Assembly: GCF_016756395.1 (NCBI RefSeq)
Contig: NZ_AP018365.1
Span: 8,001,501-8,065,500, forward strand
Length of the DNA stretch: 64,000 nucleotides
Reading direction: 5' to 3'
DNA from: Streptomyces sp. SN-593
GTDB lineage: Bacteria > Actinomycetota > Actinomycetes > Streptomycetales > Streptomycetaceae
Below the pieces are notes generated by a model that did no database searches, was not told the DNA's origin, and saw only the letters and a program-made list of their open reading frames with translations. The position numbers and the translations under genes are program-made. Of this stretch, positions 401 to 14,127 are shown piece after piece (the first letter of the stretch is position 1; each line of letters opens with the position of its first letter).

Positions 401-514
401 TCCCCGCCCGTGTGCCCGCGCCCACCGTCGCCGGACCGACGGCCCGGGCGCTTCCGGGTGGGCCGTCCGGCGCGACGCCCCTCCAGGTGCTCGCGGTGCT
501 CCAGGCGCCGGGCC

Positions 515-915
515 GGGGCGGTCGGACAGGATCGCCGGGCCGGGCAGCCCGGCGGTCGCCTCGTCCAGGCGGGCGGCGAGGTCCCGTAGCTGCTCGTCGT
601 CCCGCGGGTACGCGGTGATGATCTTGCCGCACTGGGCGCGGTCGTAGGTGCCGGAGGTCATCTGCTCGACGGTCCCCAGGTCACGGGCCGTCTTGAAGGC
701 GCACCCGGCGCGGACCAGACTCCGGCGGCGCGGTGCGGGACCTCCGGCGCGGAGAGCCGGGTCGTCGAGACGTGCAGCTTCCAGCCCTGCACCCGGGACG
801 TGTGCCGCGGCGGGGTGACCCGGCACCAGACGCCGTCGTCCTCGACCTTCCAGTCCCGCTCGTCCAGCGCGGCGAGCACGGAGCGCACCACGTCTTCCAG
901 AGGAAATGTGAGCAA
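515..915 (-). pseudogene. Remnant of a class III lanthipeptide synthetase (LanKC) N-terminal domain, frameshifted
   Basis: On the minus strand an ATG at 915 opens a frame with the LanKC N-terminal signature: a VRSVLAALDERDWKVEDD-type segment, then QGWKLHVSTTRLSAPEV. Near 718-722 the similarity moves to another frame, which continues LVRAGCAFKTARDLG, then a YDRAQCGKIITAYP block and finally DEATAGLPGPAILSDRP. It stops at the point where an intact protein would read YRPGSLVHYRYG. A one-base indel therefore split the gene and everything past roughly residue 135 (kinase, cyclase) is missing. This is a decayed third synthetase beside the functional locus at 1515-7083. It is more like the common actinobacterial LanKC type than like its two neighbours, so it is probably not a recent copy of either. 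Confidence 0.75.
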
Positions 916-1514
916 GTGAACCCACTTCCAACGCCCGGCCGACGGAGCCGGACCCCCGGCTCGCGAACGGCCCCACTGCGGAGGCGCCCGCCGCGACCGA
1001 GCATGGGGGGAAACCCCTGCCCCGACCCTCCCGCCCCCGCGTCGTCCCGTCTCCGTCCCGTCGCCGTCTCCGTCCCCGGGCCCGGCGGGGCGCGCCGGGA
1101 GGGTCCGGTGCGGGAGACGGGGCGACGGGCGGGAGCGGGGGAAGTTGGGTGCTCAGCACCCATGTCCGGGGCGTGGGCCGCTGACATCGTCGGTTCCGGT
1201 CGCGCAGGGCGCCCTGGTCGCCCTGGTCGCCCCGGTCGATCCGGTCGCTCCGGTCCGGTCACGGCGCGGAGCGCCGGGAACCCGACGCGCTCCGCGGCGC
1301 CGCGGCAGCGGCCCCACCGCACGAACGGCGCGCGCCGCGTGTCCACGACGAGGGAGGAGGGTCTCGTGCCGACGCATGACGAGAACGCGGGGAAGCCGCC
1401 CGCGCCCGCCCCCTCCCGGCAGTCCGCCGCCCCGCGGCCCGGCCGCCCCGGTGGCTGTGCCGACCGGAGCGGCCCGACGGTGCCCGCGGTCGGCCGGCGC
1501 GCGGAGGCCACCCC
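916..1514. other. Non-coding region upstream of the lanthipeptide locus
   Basis: No convincing gene is present here; the open frames are high-GC shadows. It contains a near-perfect palindrome at 1146-1162 (listed separately) and a run of degenerate GGTCGCCC/GGTCC units at about 1206-1262. No TTGACA/TATAAT-like promoter could be assigned with confidence. Confidence 0.5.
1146..1162. promoter_or_regulatory. 17-bp palindrome, candidate operator of the lanthipeptide locus
   Basis: The sequence TGGGTGCT-C-AGCACCCA has 8-bp perfect arms around a single base. It lies 350 bp upstream of the first synthetase gene and may be a regulator-binding site. No linked regulator is complete in the window, so the assignment is inferred from symmetry and position only. 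Confidence 0.35.
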
Positions 1515-4103
1515 ATGAGCGTCGACGTGTTCACCTTCGCCGACCCCGACTTCTACGTGCCGCCGTCCGCCGTCGCGGACCGCGGGCCCCACCTGCGGCC
1601 CGCAGCCGCACCGGACGGCTGGACCGCCGTCAGGACCGGGTGGTGGACCGGGTGGACCCCCGCGAGCGGCCCGCGGTTCGGGGACGGCGACCTGCGCGTC
1701 TACGCCTCCGCGGGCCCCGAACCGCTCCAGCCGGTCCTGGACGCCTTCGCGGCGGCGTGCTTCGCGCGCGGCGTCCCCTTCCGGCACGTCGCGAACCAAA
1801 GCGTCCACCACCACCTGAACCACCCGCGCGGATCGCGCGCGCAGGCCGGCAGGTTCTGCGTCGCCGCCCCCGCGGACGCGGCCGCCGCGGAGGACCTGGT
1901 GCGGGCGCTGCACGCGGCGGCGGTCTTCGCGGCCTCGGCCGCCCCGGCGGCCGAGGCGCACCAGCAGGCCGCGCCGACCGTGCGCCACGGCCGCGTCCCC
2001 GCGCCCTCGGCGTCCGCCGTCCGGCCCGACGGCACACGGTCCACCGAGGACTACCTGATGAACGCGCCCGCCCCGACGCCGGTGGCACCGGCGGGCTTCG
2101 AGGTGCGGGGACTGCGGGCGGCGTCCACCGACGGGTACTCCTTCACGGCGCGCAACGTGATGGACGGCTCCGAGGTCTTCGTCAAGCAGGCGCTCCCGCA
2201 GGCGGCGCCGGCCGGGGACGGGCGCTCGGCGGCCGACCGGCTGCGCGCGGAGTGGCGCGTGCTGGCCCGGGTCCACCACGAGGCCCCCGGCCTGTGCCCG
2301 CGCCCGCTGGTCTTCGTCGAGGGGCGTCCGTACCCCTACCTGCTGGCCGAGTTGGTCGCGGGAGTGCCGCTGACGTCCTGGGTGGTGGCGAACAGCCCGG
2401 TGGCCGACCCGGCCGCGTCCGCGGGCGACTGGTCGCGCTACCACCGGCGCGCCGCCGACCTGATCGCCCGGATCGAGCGCGACCTGCGCCGCCTGTGGCT
2501 GCTGGGCTACCCGGTGGACGGCGTCGAGGCCCGCGACGTCCTCGTCGACCGCGACGACGGCATCCGGCTGACCGGCGGCCTCACCCGTGGCACCGCGTCC
2601 GGCGCGGACACCGACGGCGCCGCACGGCGGGGCGGCGCCGACGGCCCGTCCAGGACGGCCGCCCGTCTGGGACTGCTCCTGCTGACCCCGCTCGCGCCGG
2701 TGGCCGAGCGCAACCCCGGCGTCCTCCCGCACATCCTGCGCGACCTCACCGAGCGCGCCCCGGTACCGCCCAGGCTATGGCACGCCGCGACGCGCCCGGC
2801 CGACTCGCGCGCCGGGGCCGGGGTCCCGCTTCCCAGCCCGGAACAGGTGGACGCCGACGAGCGCGGGGCCCTGACCGAGCTGCGCGACCGCGTCGCGGCG
2901 GGCATCCTGGACGCGGCCGCCGACCGCCCGTGGGGTGTCTTCCCCTCCGTCCCGCAGGGCTACGAGACCAACACGCTGGGCGTGGCCTACGGCACCGCCG
3001 GGGTCGTGCACGCCCTGCGCACCGCCGGCGTGGACATCCCCGCATGGATCACCCGGCGGCTGCGCGAGGACGCCCTGCGCCAGGCCGGCTCCCTTCCGCC
3101 CGGGCTGTACTCGGGCCTGGCCGGCATCGCCTGGGTGCTGGCCGACCTCGGGTTCCAGGACGAGGCGCGCGACCTGCTCGGCGCGGCCGACCGCCACCCG
3201 CTGACCCGCGACTCGGCCACCCTCGCGTGGGGCGCGTCCGGCGTCGCCATGGCGCACCTGGCCCTGTACGGGCACAGCCGTGACGCGTCCCACCTCGACC
3301 GTGCCGTGGAACTGACGCGGCTGCCGCAGCGGTCGGCGGCGCTGAGCGCCCGCCTCGGCCCGCACGACATGACCGGCCTGTTCTACGGACGCGCCGGCGT
3401 CGCCCACGCCCTCCAGCAGGTGGGGGCCGTCACCGGCGAGGACCGCCTGCGGCGCGGCGCGCTCCGGCTGCTGCACGCGGAACTCGACCGGGCCAGGCAG
3501 TCGGCCGGCGGCGAACTGGTCTTCCCGGTCTCCGCGAAGGACCGCAGGGGCATGTACTACCTGCACTGCGGCACCGCCGGCTTCCTCACGGCCGCCTCCC
3601 GCGCCCTCGCCGCGGCACCGGACGAGCGGCTGGCGCTGGCCGTGCCCCGGCTGGTGGCGAAGTCGTCGATCACGTACGTCGCCCACGCCGGGCTCTTCCA
3701 GGGGCTGGCCGGGCTCGGGTTCGCGCTGGCCGAGTGCGGCCGGCTGCTCGACGACGAGCGGGCGCGGGCCGCGTCGTGGAGGTCGGCGCGCACGCTGTTC
3801 GCGCACGCGCTGCCCAGCGGCGGCGCGGTCCGGTTCCTCGGCGACCTGCGGCTGCGGCAAAGCTGCGAGTTGTGGAGCGGCGCGTCCGGCGTGCTGCTCT
3901 TCCTCTCTCACCTGCTCGACCAGCGCCCGGACCCGCTCTTCAGCGTCGACTCCCTCGCCCGCGACGCCGCCGCCGCCCGCGGCCGCGCGCCCGCCCGCCG
4001 CGAGCCCCTCGCCCGCCGCGGCACCGCCGCCCGCCGCGCCGCCCCGGCCCCGGCGCGCACCCCCCAGATGTCCGCCCGCCAACCGGCGGCGCGGAAGCCG
4101 TGA
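1515..4103 (+). CDS. Class III lanthipeptide synthetase-like protein with degenerate kinase (LanKC paralogue, pseudokinase)
   Basis: 862 residues with the LanKC order of N-terminal lyase-like region (about 1-200), Ser/Thr-kinase region (about 205-460) and LanC-like cyclase region (about 470-835), then an Ala/Arg/Pro-rich tail. The N-terminus aligns with the second synthetase at 4378 (ADPDFYVP..DRG..PDGW). The kinase keeps the ATP lysine context (VFVKQA, about 221), but the catalytic loop reads DGVEARDVLVD where the paralogue has GDVSPGNVLVG, and the DFE metal motif is replaced by RLTGG. Phosphotransfer is therefore unlikely. The lyase region also lacks the RVVHYRYG-type block. In the cyclase the zinc-ligand positions read FYGRAGV and LHCGTAG, without the Cys/Cys-His set, as in class III enzymes. 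It is the first gene of the locus, 27 nt before the precursor. It may be a partner or scaffold for the active synthetase. Confidence 0.88.
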   Translation: MSVDVFTFADPDFYVPPSAVADRGPHLRPAAAPDGWTAVRTGWWTGWTPASGPRFGDGDLRVYASAGPEPLQPVLDAFAAACFARGVPFRHVANQSVHHHLNHPRGSRAQAGRFCVAAPADAAAAEDLVRALHAAAVFAASAAPAAEAHQQAAPTVRHGRVPAPSASAVRPDGTRSTEDYLMNAPAPTPVAPAGFEVRGLRAASTDGYSFTARNVMDGSEVFVKQALPQAAPAGDGRSAADRLRAEWRVLARVHHEAPGLCPRPLVFVEGRPYPYLLAELVAGVPLTSWVVANSPVADPAASAGDWSRYHRRAADLIARIERDLRRLWLLGYPVDGVEARDVLVDRDDGIRLTGGLTRGTASGADTDGAARRGGADGPSRTAARLGLLLLTPLAPVAERNPGVLPHILRDLTERAPVPPRLWHAATRPADSRAGAGVPLPSPEQVDADERGALTELRDRVAAGILDAAADRPWGVFPSVPQGYETNTLGVAYGTAGVVHALRTAGVDIPAWITRRLREDALRQAGSLPPGLYSGLAGIAWVLADLGFQDEARDLLGAADRHPLTRDSATLAWGASGVAMAHLALYGHSRDASHLDRAVELTRLPQRSAALSARLGPHDMTGLFYGRAGVAHALQQVGAVTGEDRLRRGALRLLHAELDRARQSAGGELVFPVSAKDRRGMYYLHCGTAGFLTAASRALAAAPDERLALAVPRLVAKSSITYVAHAGLFQGLAGLGFALAECGRLLDDERARAASWRSARTLFAHALPSGGAVRFLGDLRLRQSCELWSGASGVLLFLSHLLDQRPDPLFSVDSLARDAAAARGRAPARREPLARRGTAARRAAPAPARTPQMSARQPAARKP

Positions 4104-4130
4104 AGGCACACGAGAGATCAGGAGAACCCC

Positions 4131-4244
4131 ATGAGCCAGGTGCTGAACCTCCAGGAGATGGAAATCCCGGCCCCCGAGCAGGAGCAGGAAGTCGAGGGCA
4201 GCTACTTCATCTGCAGCGACGCCAGCTGGTTCCTCTGCGCCTGA
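4131..4244 (+). CDS. Class III lanthipeptide precursor, RamS/AmfS-like, 37 aa
   Basis: A very short gene between the two synthetases, with GGAG at 4121-4124 six bases before ATG. The product begins MSQVLNLQEMEIP, matching the leader consensus of class III precursors (the LLDLQ-x-M-D/E-x-P element of SapB/AmfS-type peptides). An acidic spacer (PEQEQEVEG) follows, then a core of about 14 residues: SYFIC, SDAS, WFLCA. The core holds Ser24-x3-Cys28 followed directly by Ser29-x2-Ser32-x3-Cys36. The latter is the canonical S-x2-S-x3-C motif that class III enzymes turn into labionin or lanthionine plus dehydroalanine. RamS and AmfS have two complete S-x2-S-x3-C units; here the first lacks its leading Ser-x2, giving an unusually compact two-ring core. 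A SapB-like morphogenetic surfactant role is possible but inferred. Confidence 0.88.
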   Translation: MSQVLNLQEMEIPAPEQEQEVEGSYFICSDASWFLCA

Positions 4245-4252
4245 GGCACCGC

Positions 4253-4285
4253 CGGGGCGACGCGTCCGTGCCACGCGTCGCCCCG
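4253..4285 (+). terminator. Strong stem-loop after the lanthipeptide precursor (attenuator or mRNA 3' stabiliser)
   Basis: A perfect 13-bp inverted repeat, CGGGGCGACGCGT / ACGCGTCGCCCCG, with a 7-nt loop starts 9 bases after the precursor stop codon. There is no U-tract. In lanthipeptide operons such hairpins commonly let the precursor be made in excess over the downstream synthetase; the same is inferred here. Confidence 0.75.
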
Positions 4286-4377
4286 CCCGCCCGCGGGCCG
4301 ACCTCCCCGCCCGCCCGCGGGCGCACCGCCCCACCCGCCCCACCCGCCCGTCCACGCCCGGCAGACGCGAGGCAGCA

Positions 4378-7083
4378 GTGATCGAGCAGACGTACGCGAT
4401 GGCCGACGCCGACTACTACGCGCCCGTCGAGACCCTCAAGGACCGCGGCCGTGAGTACGCCCCGGCGAAGGTCCCGGACGGCTGGCGCTCCTTCGACCGC
4501 TACCTGTGGCGGTCCTGGGGGCGCGCCGGGCTGCCGATGCCCGACCAGGGCTGGAAGGTCCACGTCTCGGCCCGCGCCGAGCGGATCGCCGACGTCCTCG
4601 ACACGGTCGCCGAGGAGTGCTTCGCGCGGGACGTCCCCTTCAAGCACGTCGCGGCCGAGCGGTTCGTGCTGCTGCTCCAGCACAAGCACGCCTCGCGGAC
4701 GCAGAGCGGGAAACTCGTCGTGGCCTACCCGGCCGACGAGCGGGCGGCCGCCGCGCTGATGAGCGCGCTCGCCGCCCGACTGGAGTCCGAACAGGGGCAG
4801 TTCATCCTCACCGACCGCCGCTTCGGCGACTCCCGGGTGGTCCACTACCGCTACGGCTCCTTCACGCCCCGGCGCCGGCTCCTGCCCGACGGCACCGGCA
4901 CGCCGGTGCTGCGCGACGGACGCGCCCGGCTCGTCGCCGACCGGCGCGAGCCGAGGTTCCACCTGCCTGAGGGGATCACCGACCCGTTCGCAGCCGGGGG
5001 CGCGCAGGCGCCCGCGGAAACGTCCGGGACGGCGAAGGCGGCCGGGACGGCGGAAGCCGCGGGCCCCGTGGAATCCGCGGGCACCGCCGAAGCCAAGGGC
5101 CCCATCGAAGCCGCGGGCACCGCCGAAGCCGAGGGCCCCACGGAAGCTGCGAACACCGCGGAACCCTCCTTCCACGGCTTCGCCTTCGACCACGCCGTCC
5201 GGCACAGCAACGGGGGAGGGGCCTACGCGGGCCGTGAACTCGCCACCGGCCGGAAGGTGTTCATCAAGGAGGCCCGCGACCACACCGGGCTCTCCTGGGA
5301 CGGCCTGACCGCCGTCGAGCGCACCCGGCGCGAGTGGGACACCCTGCGGGCGCTGCACGCGGCGCACCCCGGCATCTGCCCCGAGCCGATCGCGTACTTC
5401 CGCGAGTGGGAACACGAGTTCCTGGTCACCGAGTTCGTCCCCGGCACCACGCTCAACACCTGGGTGGCCGCCCGCAGTCCGGTGACCCGGGTGGAGGCGG
5501 AGCCGCCGGAGGCCGAGCGCTACACGGCCGACTGCGAGGCGATCGCCGCCTCGCTGGAGGAGCAGGTGCGGGTCCTGCACGGTCTGGGGTACCTCTTCGG
5601 CGACGTCAGCCCCGGCAACGTGCTGGTCGGCGACGACGGCCGGCCGCGGCTGGTGGACTTCGAGGCGGCGCGCTCCCTGGGGGACAAGGGCGTCTCGGTG
5701 GCCACCGACGGCTACGCGCCCCCGGCCCGTCTGGTGCGGGACGACCCGACCGTCCCGGACCACTACGGGATCTCGGCGCTCGTCCGGCTGATGCTCGGCC
5801 CGACCTTCGCGGTGGCCGACCGCTACCCCCGCTCGCTGGAGCACCTGCGGGCCGACCTCCAGGAGCGGATGGCGGTGCCCCAGGCGCTGTGGGGGCGCGC
5901 CGTCCGCTTCCACCCGGCCGACGGCCCGGCGCTGCTGCCGGGACCGCGGGAGGTGGCGGCCGACCCGGTGCGCCACGTCCGCGACCTGCGGGACGAGGTC
6001 GCGCGGGCGCTGACCTCGATGGCCGACCCGGACCGCGCGGACACGCTGTTCCCGACCGTCCCCGACGGGTACGCGAGCAACACCGTGTGCGTCGCCTACG
6101 GTGCGGCCGGCGTCCTGCACGCGCTGTGGCACGGCGGCGTCGCCGTGGACGAGGCCGTCGTCGCGCGCTTCCGCCGCGACGCGCTGGCCGCCGCGGGGAG
6201 CCTGCCCCCGGGGCTGCACGTGGGACTGGCGGGCGTCGCGTGGGTGCTGGCCGACCACGGGTACCTCGACGAGGCGCGCGACCTGCTCGCCACCGCCACC
6301 GAGCACCCCCTGGCCACCCGGCGGGCCGGCTTCGCCGAGGGCGCCGCCGGGGTGGCCATGGCCCACCTGTCGCTCTTCGCGCACACCGGCGACCACGGGC
6401 ACGTCGACACCGCCGAGCGCCTGCTGTCCGCGCTCCCGCCGGACGGGGAACTGTCCGGACTGCTCGACCGCGACGACCCGACCGGATGGCTGCACGGCAG
6501 GTGCGGCATCGCCTGGGCGCTCCACCCGCTGGCGGCGGTCACCGGCGACGCCCGGTACCTGGAGCGCGGGGTGCGGCTGCTGCACCACGAACTCGACCGC
6601 GCGATGCCCGGCGGGGCGGCGTCACCGCACTTCCCGGTGTCGGCCACCGACCGCCGGTCGATGCCGTACCTGTTCTGCGGGACCGCCGGGACCCTGCGCG
6701 CCGTCTGCCGCTACAACACCGTCTGCCAGGACGAGCGCCTCGCGGGCGTCGAGAGCGACCTCATGCCGCGGCTGCGCACCACGTACACGGTCATGCCGGG
6801 CCTCTACCAGGGCCTGGCCGGACTGGGGTTCGCGCTCGCGGACCACGCGTCCGTCCGCGGCGACGAGGTGTCCTCCCGCGCCGCGCTGCGCACCGCCCGG
6901 GCCCTGTTCAAGTACGCGGTCCCCGGACCCACCGGGGTCCGGTTCCACGGCGAGAAGCTCAAGCGGTTCAGCGCGGACCTGTGGAGCGGCGGGGCGGGCG
7001 TCCTGCTCTTCCTCGACCAGGTACTGGACGGCGGCGCGGACCGGCTGTTCAGCCTCGACCGGCTGGTCCCGGCGGGCTCCTGA
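4378..7083 (+). CDS. Class III lanthipeptide synthetase LanKC (intact kinase)
   Basis: 901 residues from GTG 4378. The N-terminal lyase region (about 1-200) has ADADYYAPVETL, GWKVHVSARA and the conserved VVHYRYGSF end. A low-complexity TAEAxGP linker (about 215-262) precedes the kinase (about 270-530), which retains the lysine (KVFIKEA), the catalytic loop GDVSPGNVLV (about 407) and the metal motif VDFEAA (about 427). The LanC-like cyclase (about 550-890) has WLHGRCGIAW and LFCGTAGT where zinc ligands sit in LanC/LanL. The Cys/Cys-His ligands are absent, which fits class III rather than class IV. The expected activity is NTP-dependent phosphorylation and elimination of Ser in the 4131 precursor, then Cys addition. 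No transporter or leader protease gene is nearby, so export and leader removal must be supplied elsewhere. Confidence 0.93.
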   Translation: MIEQTYAMADADYYAPVETLKDRGREYAPAKVPDGWRSFDRYLWRSWGRAGLPMPDQGWKVHVSARAERIADVLDTVAEECFARDVPFKHVAAERFVLLLQHKHASRTQSGKLVVAYPADERAAAALMSALAARLESEQGQFILTDRRFGDSRVVHYRYGSFTPRRRLLPDGTGTPVLRDGRARLVADRREPRFHLPEGITDPFAAGGAQAPAETSGTAKAAGTAEAAGPVESAGTAEAKGPIEAAGTAEAEGPTEAANTAEPSFHGFAFDHAVRHSNGGGAYAGRELATGRKVFIKEARDHTGLSWDGLTAVERTRREWDTLRALHAAHPGICPEPIAYFREWEHEFLVTEFVPGTTLNTWVAARSPVTRVEAEPPEAERYTADCEAIAASLEEQVRVLHGLGYLFGDVSPGNVLVGDDGRPRLVDFEAARSLGDKGVSVATDGYAPPARLVRDDPTVPDHYGISALVRLMLGPTFAVADRYPRSLEHLRADLQERMAVPQALWGRAVRFHPADGPALLPGPREVAADPVRHVRDLRDEVARALTSMADPDRADTLFPTVPDGYASNTVCVAYGAAGVLHALWHGGVAVDEAVVARFRRDALAAAGSLPPGLHVGLAGVAWVLADHGYLDEARDLLATATEHPLATRRAGFAEGAAGVAMAHLSLFAHTGDHGHVDTAERLLSALPPDGELSGLLDRDDPTGWLHGRCGIAWALHPLAAVTGDARYLERGVRLLHHELDRAMPGGAASPHFPVSATDRRSMPYLFCGTAGTLRAVCRYNTVCQDERLAGVESDLMPRLRTTYTVMPGLYQGLAGLGFALADHASVRGDEVSSRAALRTARALFKYAVPGPTGVRFHGEKLKRFSADLWSGGAGVLLFLDQVLDGGADRLFSLDRLVPAGS
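5041..5166 (+). repeat. Tandem 36-bp repeats encoding the TAEAxGP linker of the synthetase
   Basis: Three successive 36-bp units (5041-5076, 5077-5112, 5113-5148) and a partial fourth encode about 12 residues each of the type AGTAEAxGPxEA. They lie between the lyase and kinase domains of the intact LanKC. The first synthetase gene has no such repeat, so this is a recent linker expansion. Confidence 0.85.
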
Positions 7084-11879: not shown

Positions 11880-13208
11880 TCATGCGGCGCCGGCCGGGAA
11901 GCCCCCGTCGAAGGCCGGGACCAGCTCCGAGAACCAGGCCGCGGCGGGGTCGAACTTCGCGTAGAACGGGCGGCCCACCGCGTCCGCGTCACGGCACTGG
12001 ATGTAGTGCAGTGCGAACACCTTCTCACCCGCGACGTCCACGACGCCGTCCACGCAGACCTTTCCCGAGGTCGTGGACATCGACGGCCCGCGCACCGTGC
12101 GGCACAGCCCGCTGACGTCCCGGTAGGCGCGCCGGAAGATGTCGTGGGCGTCGGCGAGGGACACCTTGAAGTACTCCTGCGGGCCGGTGTCCCGCTCGAC
12201 GAACATGTAGTAGGGCACCATGCCCATGCTGACCTGCCTGCTCCACATCGCGGACCAGACCGCGGGGTCGTCGTTGATGTACCGCATCAGCGGCGCCTGG
12301 GTGCGGATGCTCGCCCCCGCGCCGCGCAGCCGCCGTACCGCCTGTTCGACGACCGGGGTCCGCAGTTCCCGCGGGTGGGAGAAGTGGGCCATCACCGAGA
12401 GGTCCTTGCCCGAGCGGGACACCTCCTCGAAGAGCCGCAGCATGTCGTCGGCGTCCGGGTCGGTGGTGAACTTGTAGGGCCAGTAGCTGAGGGCCTTCGT
12501 GCCGATGCGGAGGGATTCCAACTGGTCGAGTTCGAGCAGCGGTTCGACGTAGCGGCGCAGCACGCCCGCCCGCATGATCATCGGGTCGCCGCCGGTGAAC
12601 AGCACGTTGCTCACCTCGGGGTGGTCGGCGAGGTAGCGCTTCAACTGCCCGATGTCGCCGCTGGCCATCTTCAGGTCCGCGTCCCCCACGAACTGGGCCC
12701 AGCGGAAGCAGTACGTGCAGTACGAGTGGCAGGTCTGGCCCTGCTTGGGGAAGAACAGCACGGTCTCGCGGTACTTGTGCTGCATGCCCGGCAGCGGCGC
12801 GCCCGCGTGCCGGGGGACGTTCAGTTCGAGCTGGCCGGCCGGGTGCGGGTTCAGCCGGCGGCGCACCGCGTTCGCCGCGGCTGCCACCTCCTTCGGCGCG
12901 GCGCCCCTCGTCAGCAGGTCGGCGATGCGTGCCACGTCCCCGGCCGGCAGCATGTCCTCTTGAGGGAAGACCAGGCGGTAGATCGGGTCGTCCGGCACCG
13001 CGCTCCAGTCGATCAGCTCCTCGACGACGTAGCGGTTCGTCCGGAACGGCAGCACCTCGGCGACGGCGCGTATCGCGGTGACCTGGCTCCCGGTGAAGCC
13101 GGCCGCGCCGACGAGTTCGGCGAGCCGGCCGGCGGTGACGGCGGAGAACACCGGCGCGGCGGGGAAGCCGGGTACGGCCGGGTCACTCGAGCCCTGGACG
13201 ACGGTCAT
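11880..13208 (-). CDS. KamA-family radical SAM protein (2,3-aminomutase-like), first copy
   Basis: 442 residues if read from ATG 13208, which has AAGGGA just upstream; an in-frame start at 13241 is possible. The radical SAM cluster motif is CHSYCTYC (about residue 158). The protein follows lysine 2,3-aminomutase architecture: LVFPQEDML, a conserved HKYRETVLFFPKQGQ lead-in, FTGGDPMIM, and a late TTSGKV element (about 378) where KamA enzymes carry the PLP-binding lysine. KamA enzymes migrate an alpha-amino group to the beta carbon through SAM cleavage and PLP. The substrate is unlikely to be assumed lysine, as the protein is divergent. Its start overlaps the end of the exporter gene by 26 nt, implying translational coupling. 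Confidence 0.88.
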   Translation of the reverse strand: MTVVQGSSDPAVPGFPAAPVFSAVTAGRLAELVGAAGFTGSQVTAIRAVAEVLPFRTNRYVVEELIDWSAVPDDPIYRLVFPQEDMLPAGDVARIADLLTRGAAPKEVAAAANAVRRRLNPHPAGQLELNVPRHAGAPLPGMQHKYRETVLFFPKQGQTCHSYCTYCFRWAQFVGDADLKMASGDIGQLKRYLADHPEVSNVLFTGGDPMIMRAGVLRRYVEPLLELDQLESLRIGTKALSYWPYKFTTDPDADDMLRLFEEVSRSGKDLSVMAHFSHPRELRTPVVEQAVRRLRGAGASIRTQAPLMRYINDDPAVWSAMWSRQVSMGMVPYYMFVERDTGPQEYFKVSLADAHDIFRRAYRDVSGLCRTVRGPSMSTTSGKVCVDGVVDVAGEKVFALHYIQCRDADAVGRPFYAKFDPAAAWFSELVPAFDGGFPAGAA

Positions 13209-14127
13209 GGACGGTCCCTTCTCTGATGGTGGCTGGACCACTGCTGCCCCCGGTGCGGGTGCGCAGGGTGGCGAGGACGACGACGCCCACCGCGAGGCCC
13301 ACGAGTACGGCGGAGGGCCGCAGCGGTTCGTCGAGGAGGACGGCCGCGAAGAGCATGGTGAGCACCGGTTGCAGGAGCTGGACCTGGCTCACCTTGGCCA
13401 CCCCGCCGGCGGACAGCCCCCGGTACCAGCAGAAGAACGACAGCAGCGAGCTGCCCAGGGCCAGGTAGACGAAGGCGGCCGCACCGCGCGCGTCCAGGGA
13501 CGGCCCTGGCGACGGCCAGGCCAGCGCCACCGCCAGGGCCGCCGGCGGGGTGCCGGCGACCAGGGCCCAGGAGGTGACCACCCAGCCCGGCACGTCCCGG
13601 GCCAGCACGCCCCCCTCCGCGTAGCCGAGGGAGCAGGCCACGACCGCCGCCAGCAGCTCGGCGTCGCCGACGTGCAGTCCGCCGCCGAAGCCCAGCAGGA
13701 CGTAGCCGCACACGAGCGCGGTGCCCAGCGCGCAGCAGACCCAGAACGTGGCCGAGGGCCGCTCCCGGCCCCGCAGGACGGCCATCACCGCGGTCGTGGC
13801 CGGCAGCAGGGCCACCACCACGGCGGCGTGGCTCGCCGAGACCGAGCGCAGGGCGTGCGCGGTCAGCAGCGGGAAGCCGATGACGGTGCCCAGGGACGTG
13901 ACGACCACGCCGCGCACGTGGTGTCTCGGCGGCAGCAGCGGACGCTGCCGGGCGAGCAGCAGCGCTCCCGCGGGGATCACGGCGAGCAGGGACCGCCCCG
14001 GGCCCACGAGTTCGGGCGGGAGCGATTCCGTGCCCACTCGGGTCACCGGCAGGGTGAGGCTGAACCCGAGCACCCCCAGGAAGCCGTAGAGGAATCCCTG
14101 GAGGTCCGGGGGGAGGGTGCGTTTCAT
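13183..14127 (-). CDS. EamA/DMT-superfamily transporter
   Basis: 314 residues with about ten hydrophobic segments arranged as two EamA repeats, for example FLYGFLGVLGFSLTLPVTRV at the start and SQVQLLQPVLTMLFAAVLLDEPL in the second repeat. The latter is the typical conserved end of DMT exporters. These proteins move amino acids and small metabolites across the inner membrane without ATP. Placement within the biosynthetic array, overlapping the next gene, suggests export of the pathway product or protection against it. The C-terminal ~20 residues (RTRTGGSS onward) are polar and non-conserved. Confidence 0.92.
   Translation of the reverse strand: MKRTLPPDLQGFLYGFLGVLGFSLTLPVTRVGTESLPPELVGPGRSLLAVIPAGALLLARQRPLLPPRHHVRGVVVTSLGTVIGFPLLTAHALRSVSASHAAVVVALLPATTAVMAVLRGRERPSATFWVCCALGTALVCGYVLLGFGGGLHVGDAELLAAVVACSLGYAEGGVLARDVPGWVVTSWALVAGTPPAALAVALAWPSPGPSLDARGAAAFVYLALGSSLLSFFCWYRGLSAGGVAKVSQVQLLQPVLTMLFAAVLLDEPLRPSAVLVGLAVGVVVLATLRTRTGGSSGPATIREGTVHDRRPGLE

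Follow-up and report, generated by a model that had tools for sequence, protein, structure and literature searches.

SapB-type class III lanthipeptide systems work with one enzyme, a precedent that counts against a partner role for a second synthetase. Class III enzymes carry kinase, lyase and cyclase in one chain, and a mutation in one domain disturbs the others (PMC10604976), which leaves the choice between lanthionine and labionin rings in class III unsettled. The cyclase domain of ThurKC remains functional in trans when supplied separately from the lyase-kinase part (PMC10604976). Kinase-fold proteins lacking the Asp/Mg motifs, namely RosX and TvaE-S-87, have been given a cyclisation or intermediate-protecting role in lanthipeptide and thioamitide pathways (PMC12291118), and the class V LanK-LanY pair (CaoK-CaoY) forms a heterodimeric lanthipeptide dehydratase (PMC9486802).

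Here, we describe a triad of genes in a 64,000-nucleotide stretch of the Streptomyces sp. SN-593 genome (the window), consisting of a LanKC-like pseudo-synthetase (ps), a short precursor and a LanKC (KC). Sequence comparison suggests that ps is probably a helper or ring-closing partner, not a broken leftover. Searches of open-access papers turned up no LanKC paired with a second LanKC that is kinase- and lyase-dead.

Gene content and distribution of the triad

The three open reading frames described in the first-pass annotation are present and encode 862, 37 and 901 residues, and the frame of ps is full-length (Table 1). With 696 bits against NF038151, the NCBIfam model of class III synthetases, KC passes the curated LanKC cut-off of 575 bits, and it contains all tested kinase and lyase catalytic residues when aligned to ThurKC, confirming the downstream synthetase as intact. 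By contrast, ps belongs to the same family but falls far below the cut-off with 385 bits, as do its three orthologs with 387, 365 and 317 bits (the last from a C-terminal part). The two proteins share 43% identity across 624 residues, with 40% across the first 121, and KC is ~50–55% identical to the window genome's own AmfT-like enzyme. A canonical AmfT/RamC-like class III synthetase is encoded elsewhere in that genome (G000:C1:736621-739173). Only the window copy of KC has an Ala/Glu/Gly/Thr-rich repeat insertion in the lyase-kinase linker (residues 208–259, window 4999–5154), modelled with low confidence.

Table 1 Features of the triad and its left flank, in window coordinates
Feature	Position	Strand	Basis
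Truncated, frameshifted 5′ remnant of a LanL (class IV synthetase) gene	430..1047	-	Locus comparison
Residual LanM2-LanT intergenic (promoter) region, now lying 5′ of ps	1130..1432	.	Locus comparison
Right-hand deletion end; similarity to relatives resumes ~37 bp before the ps start, LanT gone	1478..1514	.	Locus comparison
ps, LanKC-like pseudo-synthetase, 862 aa, first triad gene	1515..4103	+	ORF, family score, omega, alignment, AlphaFold2 model
Lyase-domain remnant, ps residues 1–135; further downstream the D152/R163/R191 segment is lost	1515..1919	+	Partial Pfam RamC_N match, ThurKC alignment
Pseudokinase domain, ps residues 196–425	2100..2789	+	Predicted kinase fold (Z 13.4 to the kinase domain of CurKC); retains the AxK Lys and the Glu of helix C
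ps catalytic loop PVDGVEARDVL where KC has LFGDVSPGNVL	2511..2543	+	Sequence and alignment
ps TGGL where KC has VDFE; metal-binding motif lost	2571..2582	+	Alignment
LanC-type cyclase domain, ps residues 440–818	2832..3968	+	Almost all class III invariants kept; omega 0.06–0.11
ps Tyr624 in place of the xHGRxG His (ThurKC D667 / NisC H212 position)	3384..3386	+	Alignment
GGAGAA ribosome-binding site of the precursor gene	4121..4126	+	Sequence, compared between loci
Precursor MSQVLNLQEMEIPAPEQEQEVEGSYFICSDASWFLCA, 37 aa, SapB/RamS-like	4131..4244	+	ORF, Pfam/NCBIfam near-miss, orthologs
Hairpin directly 3′ of the precursor stop (GGGGCGACGCGT / ACGCGTCGCCCC)	4254..4284	+	Kept in 4/4 loci
KC, intact 901-aa LanKC (class III lanthipeptide synthetase)	4378..7083	+	ORF, NCBIfam, residue alignment

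The same triad in the same gene order occurs in four of 35 genomes of the genus, the window genome and three others (G003, G023 and G026). The ps orthologs in these three are 81, 76 and 72% identical to ps, and in each case a gene for a 37-aa precursor and then a KC ortholog come next. Close KC orthologs (83–87% identity) are present in exactly the same genomes as ps and never without it among the 35, and no other class III enzyme of the genus exceeds 57% identity to KC. The search proposed in the first-pass annotation, for further genomes with a LanKC pair and a precursor, yielded three more within these 35 genomes, and the degenerate copy is devoid of the catalytic Asp and the DFE motif in all four. 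No ps was detected in the sampled 36 genomes from 16 other genera of the family or 37 genomes from other families of the class; family relatives outside the genus, at 31–43% identity, have intact catalytic loops wherever the motifs are readable. A pattern scan of 85 thousand species genomes returned a single match, short and unrelated, and plasmids carry no ps relative above 34% identity.

A compact precursor core followed by a conserved hairpin

The precursor falls just under two family thresholds, with 23.5 bits against Pfam RamS (cut-off 24.3) and 20.4 bits against NCBIfam SapB_AmfS (cut-off 25). The compact S-x3-C / S-x2-S-x3-C core read from the window holds across the four species, with every core Ser and Cys conserved. 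This core has three Ser and two Cys, and three genomes share the sequence SYFICSDASWFLCA while the remaining one has SWFICSDASWFLCA; rather than the two S-x2-S-x3-C motifs characteristic of SapB/AmfS, all four species have one full motif plus S-x3-C. A role for ps as a RosX-like AviCys cyclase was rejected, as the core lacks a C-terminal Cys and ends in Cys-Ala in all four orthologs. In G026, a second precursor, MDQVIALQSLPDAPRHDPAPENGEIAISELSFAICGPFPSEFSVSVCI, overlaps the end of KC (L026:13180-13326, + strand) and has two full S-x2-S-x3-C motifs and no NCBIfam match.

A hairpin after the precursor stop is seen in many lantibiotic operons. The hairpin here is strong and stable and conserved across the four loci with few compensatory changes, and is probably an attenuator that sets the precursor:KC ratio; it may hold KC transcription under that of the precursor.

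Loss of the kinase and lyase sites in ps

Guided by the mutational map of ThurKC (PMC10604976), whose numbering is used in this section, we read out aligned positions in 30 sequences (four ps and 26 other rows). GDVSPGNV of KC aligns with DGVEARDV of ps, replacing the catalytic Asp by Gly and the Asn by Asp, which corroborates the reported loss of the kinase catalytic loop, and the equivalents of D364 and D382 are absent from all four ps while present in 26 of 26 other rows. The D, F and E of the DFE motif are indeed all gone, although the substitute given as TGG was off by one column (VDFE aligns with TGGL). Decay of the lyase region is likewise real, but its extent had been understated (K65, K94, K117 to Arg; D152, R163, R191 missing; four orthologs): the seven positions K65, H67, K94, K117, D152, R163 and R191, invariant in 26 of 26 other rows, are replaced or lost in ps save H67, which two orthologs keep. 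In addition, K108 is Pro in ps.

Judged by these residues, two of the three active sites of ps, kinase and lyase, are gone, and ps has no dehydration residues. The pseudokinase keeps the equivalents of the ATP-binding Lys257 and of Glu279 in helix C, and its activation segment is replaced by a variable linker modelled with low confidence. The leader groove is changed as well, with Trp302 replaced by Arg, Arg, Pro or Gly depending on the ortholog and Glu258 by Gln in all four, whereas KC keeps both. As these two residues grip the leader in ThurKC, their loss weakens the earlier suggestion that ps positions the leader, and with it ps as a leader-binding platform. Against columns invariant in four KC and seven AmfT-type enzymes, ps shows 26 fixed changes, 23 in the lyase, linker and kinase regions and three in the cyclase.

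Preservation of the cyclase domain

The AlphaFold2 model of ps is a full LanKC-like protein (mean pLDDT 79.8, pTM 0.81). Among solved structures, ThurKC fits it best (Z 38.9 across 733 residues), and its cyclase domain matches LanCL and NisC. The predicted model has the three-domain LanKC fold with a Zn-independent LanC-type cyclase, lacking a Cys-Cys-His zinc set. The three fixed cyclase changes from KC to ps are H706 to Y624, P763 to Y681 and A836 to S754. Position 624 is Tyr in all four ps but His in all four KC and the seven AmfT-type enzymes, and corresponds to a known acid/base position, while Y681 lies beside an active-site loop. Of 65 cyclase loop columns, 54 are invariant among ps and 61 among KC. 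Because class III cyclases conserve their catalytic residues poorly, activity is unreadable from sequence.

Beyond a variable linker, the C-terminus of each of the four ps is a conserved ART(P/S)QMSARxP tail (window about 4050–4100) that KC lacks; it is a possible docking peptide or a DNA-level signal ahead of the precursor.

A candidate partner for KC in ring formation

We tentatively favor a reading of ps as a retained pseudo-synthetase working alongside KC on the 37-aa precursor through an intact cyclase, closing or steering a ring, as KC has all leader-binding and dehydration residues and ps none for dehydration. KC alone would bind the leader, phosphorylate the three core Ser and eliminate the phosphates, whereas ps would perform neither dehydration step, its lyase and kinase domains persisting as a folded scaffold. 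It would contribute through its toroidal cyclase domain and, most probably in partnership with KC, close or steer one ring of the compact core. The changed leader groove, together with a preserved cyclase with fixed Tyr residues near the active center, suggests that ps may handle the dehydrated core. We infer a physical complex of ps with KC, its action on the 37-aa precursor and the cyclase as its working part.

The partner role put forward in the first-pass annotation survives insofar as ps is maintained and tied to KC and the precursor, making a partner likely and decay very unlikely; it is the leader-positioning version that has lost ground. Gating of the cyclase and ring specificity remain the best candidates for the role of ps, given that the cyclase is its best-kept part and the fixed changes sit at active-site loops. 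A more specific version, which we advance with greater reserve, is a heteromeric class III synthetase in which the LanKC would bind the leader and dehydrate, while an obligate ps with a re-tuned pocket (His to Tyr) would determine how the two rings of the unusually compact core close. Against a cyclase partner, KC already has a complete cyclase domain, and the His to Tyr change could mean that the ps cyclase is inactive.

The latter point leads to the main rival, a purely structural subunit: ps may be dead in all three active sites and pair with KC to stabilize it or to alter the order or processivity of modification. This is somewhat unlikely in our judgment, although the kinase and lyase residues are lost, Tyr replaces the conserved His of the cyclase in four of four orthologs, and the pseudokinase retains its Lys-Glu pair and fold and is itself under purifying selection. 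PneKC structure entries with two chains, one of them titled with substrate on chain A only, are also consistent with such pairing, which is known there from entry titles alone. However, a scaffold offers no obvious reason for a cyclase center kept as well as the loop columns indicate.

A surviving part of a larger lanthipeptide island

In G003 and G023 the triad lies within a larger lanthipeptide island, and in G026 the island is split around it. This class II/III/IV island has several precursors and three kinds of synthetase (loci L052, L027, L054, L028, L050, L026, L051 and L064), comprising a LuxR-type regulator, a 70–73-aa class II-like precursor, LanM1, further regulators, two ABC half-transporters, ALQxL class IV precursors, LanL, 60–61-aa precursors with a double-Gly site, and LanM2. 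One 61-aa island peptide ends in WSFSCCDTTLCSDCSI and is near-identical there between species. Apparently complete LanL copies are found in G003 (L052, 1031 bits) and G026 (L064:1195-4002). G026 and G003 also encode a C39-ABC exporter, LanT, the stop of which overlaps the ps start (ATGA).

The window genome has lost the block that runs from the second regulator to LanT, save the LanL 5′ end and scraps of the LanM2-LanT intergenic region; these deletions took LanT, LanM2 and most of LanL and left ps, the precursor and KC intact. With the surrounding block deleted here and LanT mostly missing in G023 too, the triad appears as the surviving part of the island. LanT is not a required part, being lost in two of the four genomes that keep ps, and no RamAB-type exporter genes lie directly beside the triad in the window. 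To the left of the window (G000:C1:7993508-8001900, L029) are a LAL/LuxR regulator, a 72-aa class II precursor (MSDNPLVNAWKNP...) and LanM1, followed by a LuxR regulator ending at window position 400. Downstream, a minus-strand run includes a weak radical-SAM protein by an EamA transporter gene (window 11880–13241, - strand), which is not triad-adjacent in relatives.

This neighborhood bears on two further roles. First, ps could act after or beside modification, binding the modified peptide as a chaperone, self-protection factor or export adaptor, to which its leader groove, unlike that of KC, and its translational coupling to the LanT exporter gene in G026 and G003 would be suited; we regard this as improbable because ps is kept where LanT is gone, and the double-Gly LanA61 peptides suit LanT better than the 37-mer. 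Second, ps could serve another island precursor, such as that of LanM2 or LanL, as three relatives carry the triad inside or close to an island that encodes LanM1, LanM2 and LanL along with several precursors. This has little chance of being correct, for LanM2, its precursor and LanL are gone from the window genome, where ps is intact, has low omega and adjoins the 37-mer gene.

Purifying selection on ps

Under a codon model of the four orthologs, the pairwise omega of ps is 0.10–0.15 at dS 0.64–1.49 (values of dS near 1 being approximate), compared with 0.08–0.12 for KC. By domain, omega is 0.09–0.18 for the lyase remnant, 0.09–0.19 for the pseudokinase and 0.06–0.11 for the cyclase, the KC cyclase giving 0.07–0.11. 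Tested against an omega of 1, every ps domain is far below it (2dlnL 220–400, dS 0.6–1.5). Changes in ps confined to the window lineage comprise 32 silent and 16 amino-acid-changing ones. When ps was drifted neutrally to the observed divergence in simulation, in-frame stops averaged 6–8 and none of 300 runs was stop-free. A tree of the cyclases places ps and KC in two clades of their own, each with 100/100 support, among SapB/AmfT-type enzymes, and the four species are nested within each, indicating that the ps/KC split predates the four species and ruling out ps as a recent tandem duplicate of KC.

Frequent frameshifts in the first gene, which had been named as evidence against a partner role, were not observed, as one of four orthologs is broken, and in the variable linker. 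In that ortholog (G023), a frame change splits ps after residue about 176 with a TGATG stop/ATG overlap (L028:6648-9244). The LanL and LanM2 genes of the same assembly (95% complete, two contigs) also contain frame breaks. Similar breaks in two neighboring conserved genes and the incomplete genome make an assembly error the likely cause, a real two-protein split gene being possible.

Together, the strong purifying selection and the nearby deletions that spared ps, precursor and KC argue that ps is no dying pseudogene, a status ruled out by omega, the stop simulation and the conserved gene order. The least probable reading of all, that ps is a decaying KC duplicate kept open by high GC content, could draw on the G023 frame break and the deletions in the neighborhood but is opposed by omega in every domain, by the stops that always arose under neutrality and by clades older than the four species, which leave no fresh copy.

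Comparison with known systems

A kinase- and lyase-dead natural partner with a preserved cyclase would offer a route to separate dehydration from cyclisation, and the triad provides a defined small test set of three Ser, two Cys and two genes.

Compared with the SapB/AmfS-type systems (RamC/AmfT), the triad shares the lyase-kinase-cyclase order, the Zn-independent cyclase and a small precursor with a Leu-x-Leu-Gln-type leader and an S-x2-S-x3-C motif, but here two synthetase genes, one without kinase and lyase residues, flank one precursor, which has 37 residues with a 14-residue SYFICSDASWFLCA segment. ThurKC from Bacillus thuringiensis (PDB 8SAM, 8SAO and 8SAP; PMC10604976), the closest fold to ps and the source of the residues tested, is a single enzyme, whereas ps lacks the equivalents of its K65, K94, K117, D152, R163, R191, D364, D382, W302 and E258. 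Like RosX and TvaE-S-87, ps is a kinase-fold relative without Asp/Mg motifs; those proteins, however, are single kinase-fold domains of class V or thioamitide pathways linked to AviCys formation, whereas ps has three domains, one of them a LanC-type cyclase. CaoK-CaoY provides the precedent for a heterodimeric enzyme, but both of its subunits are catalytic, with one activity each.
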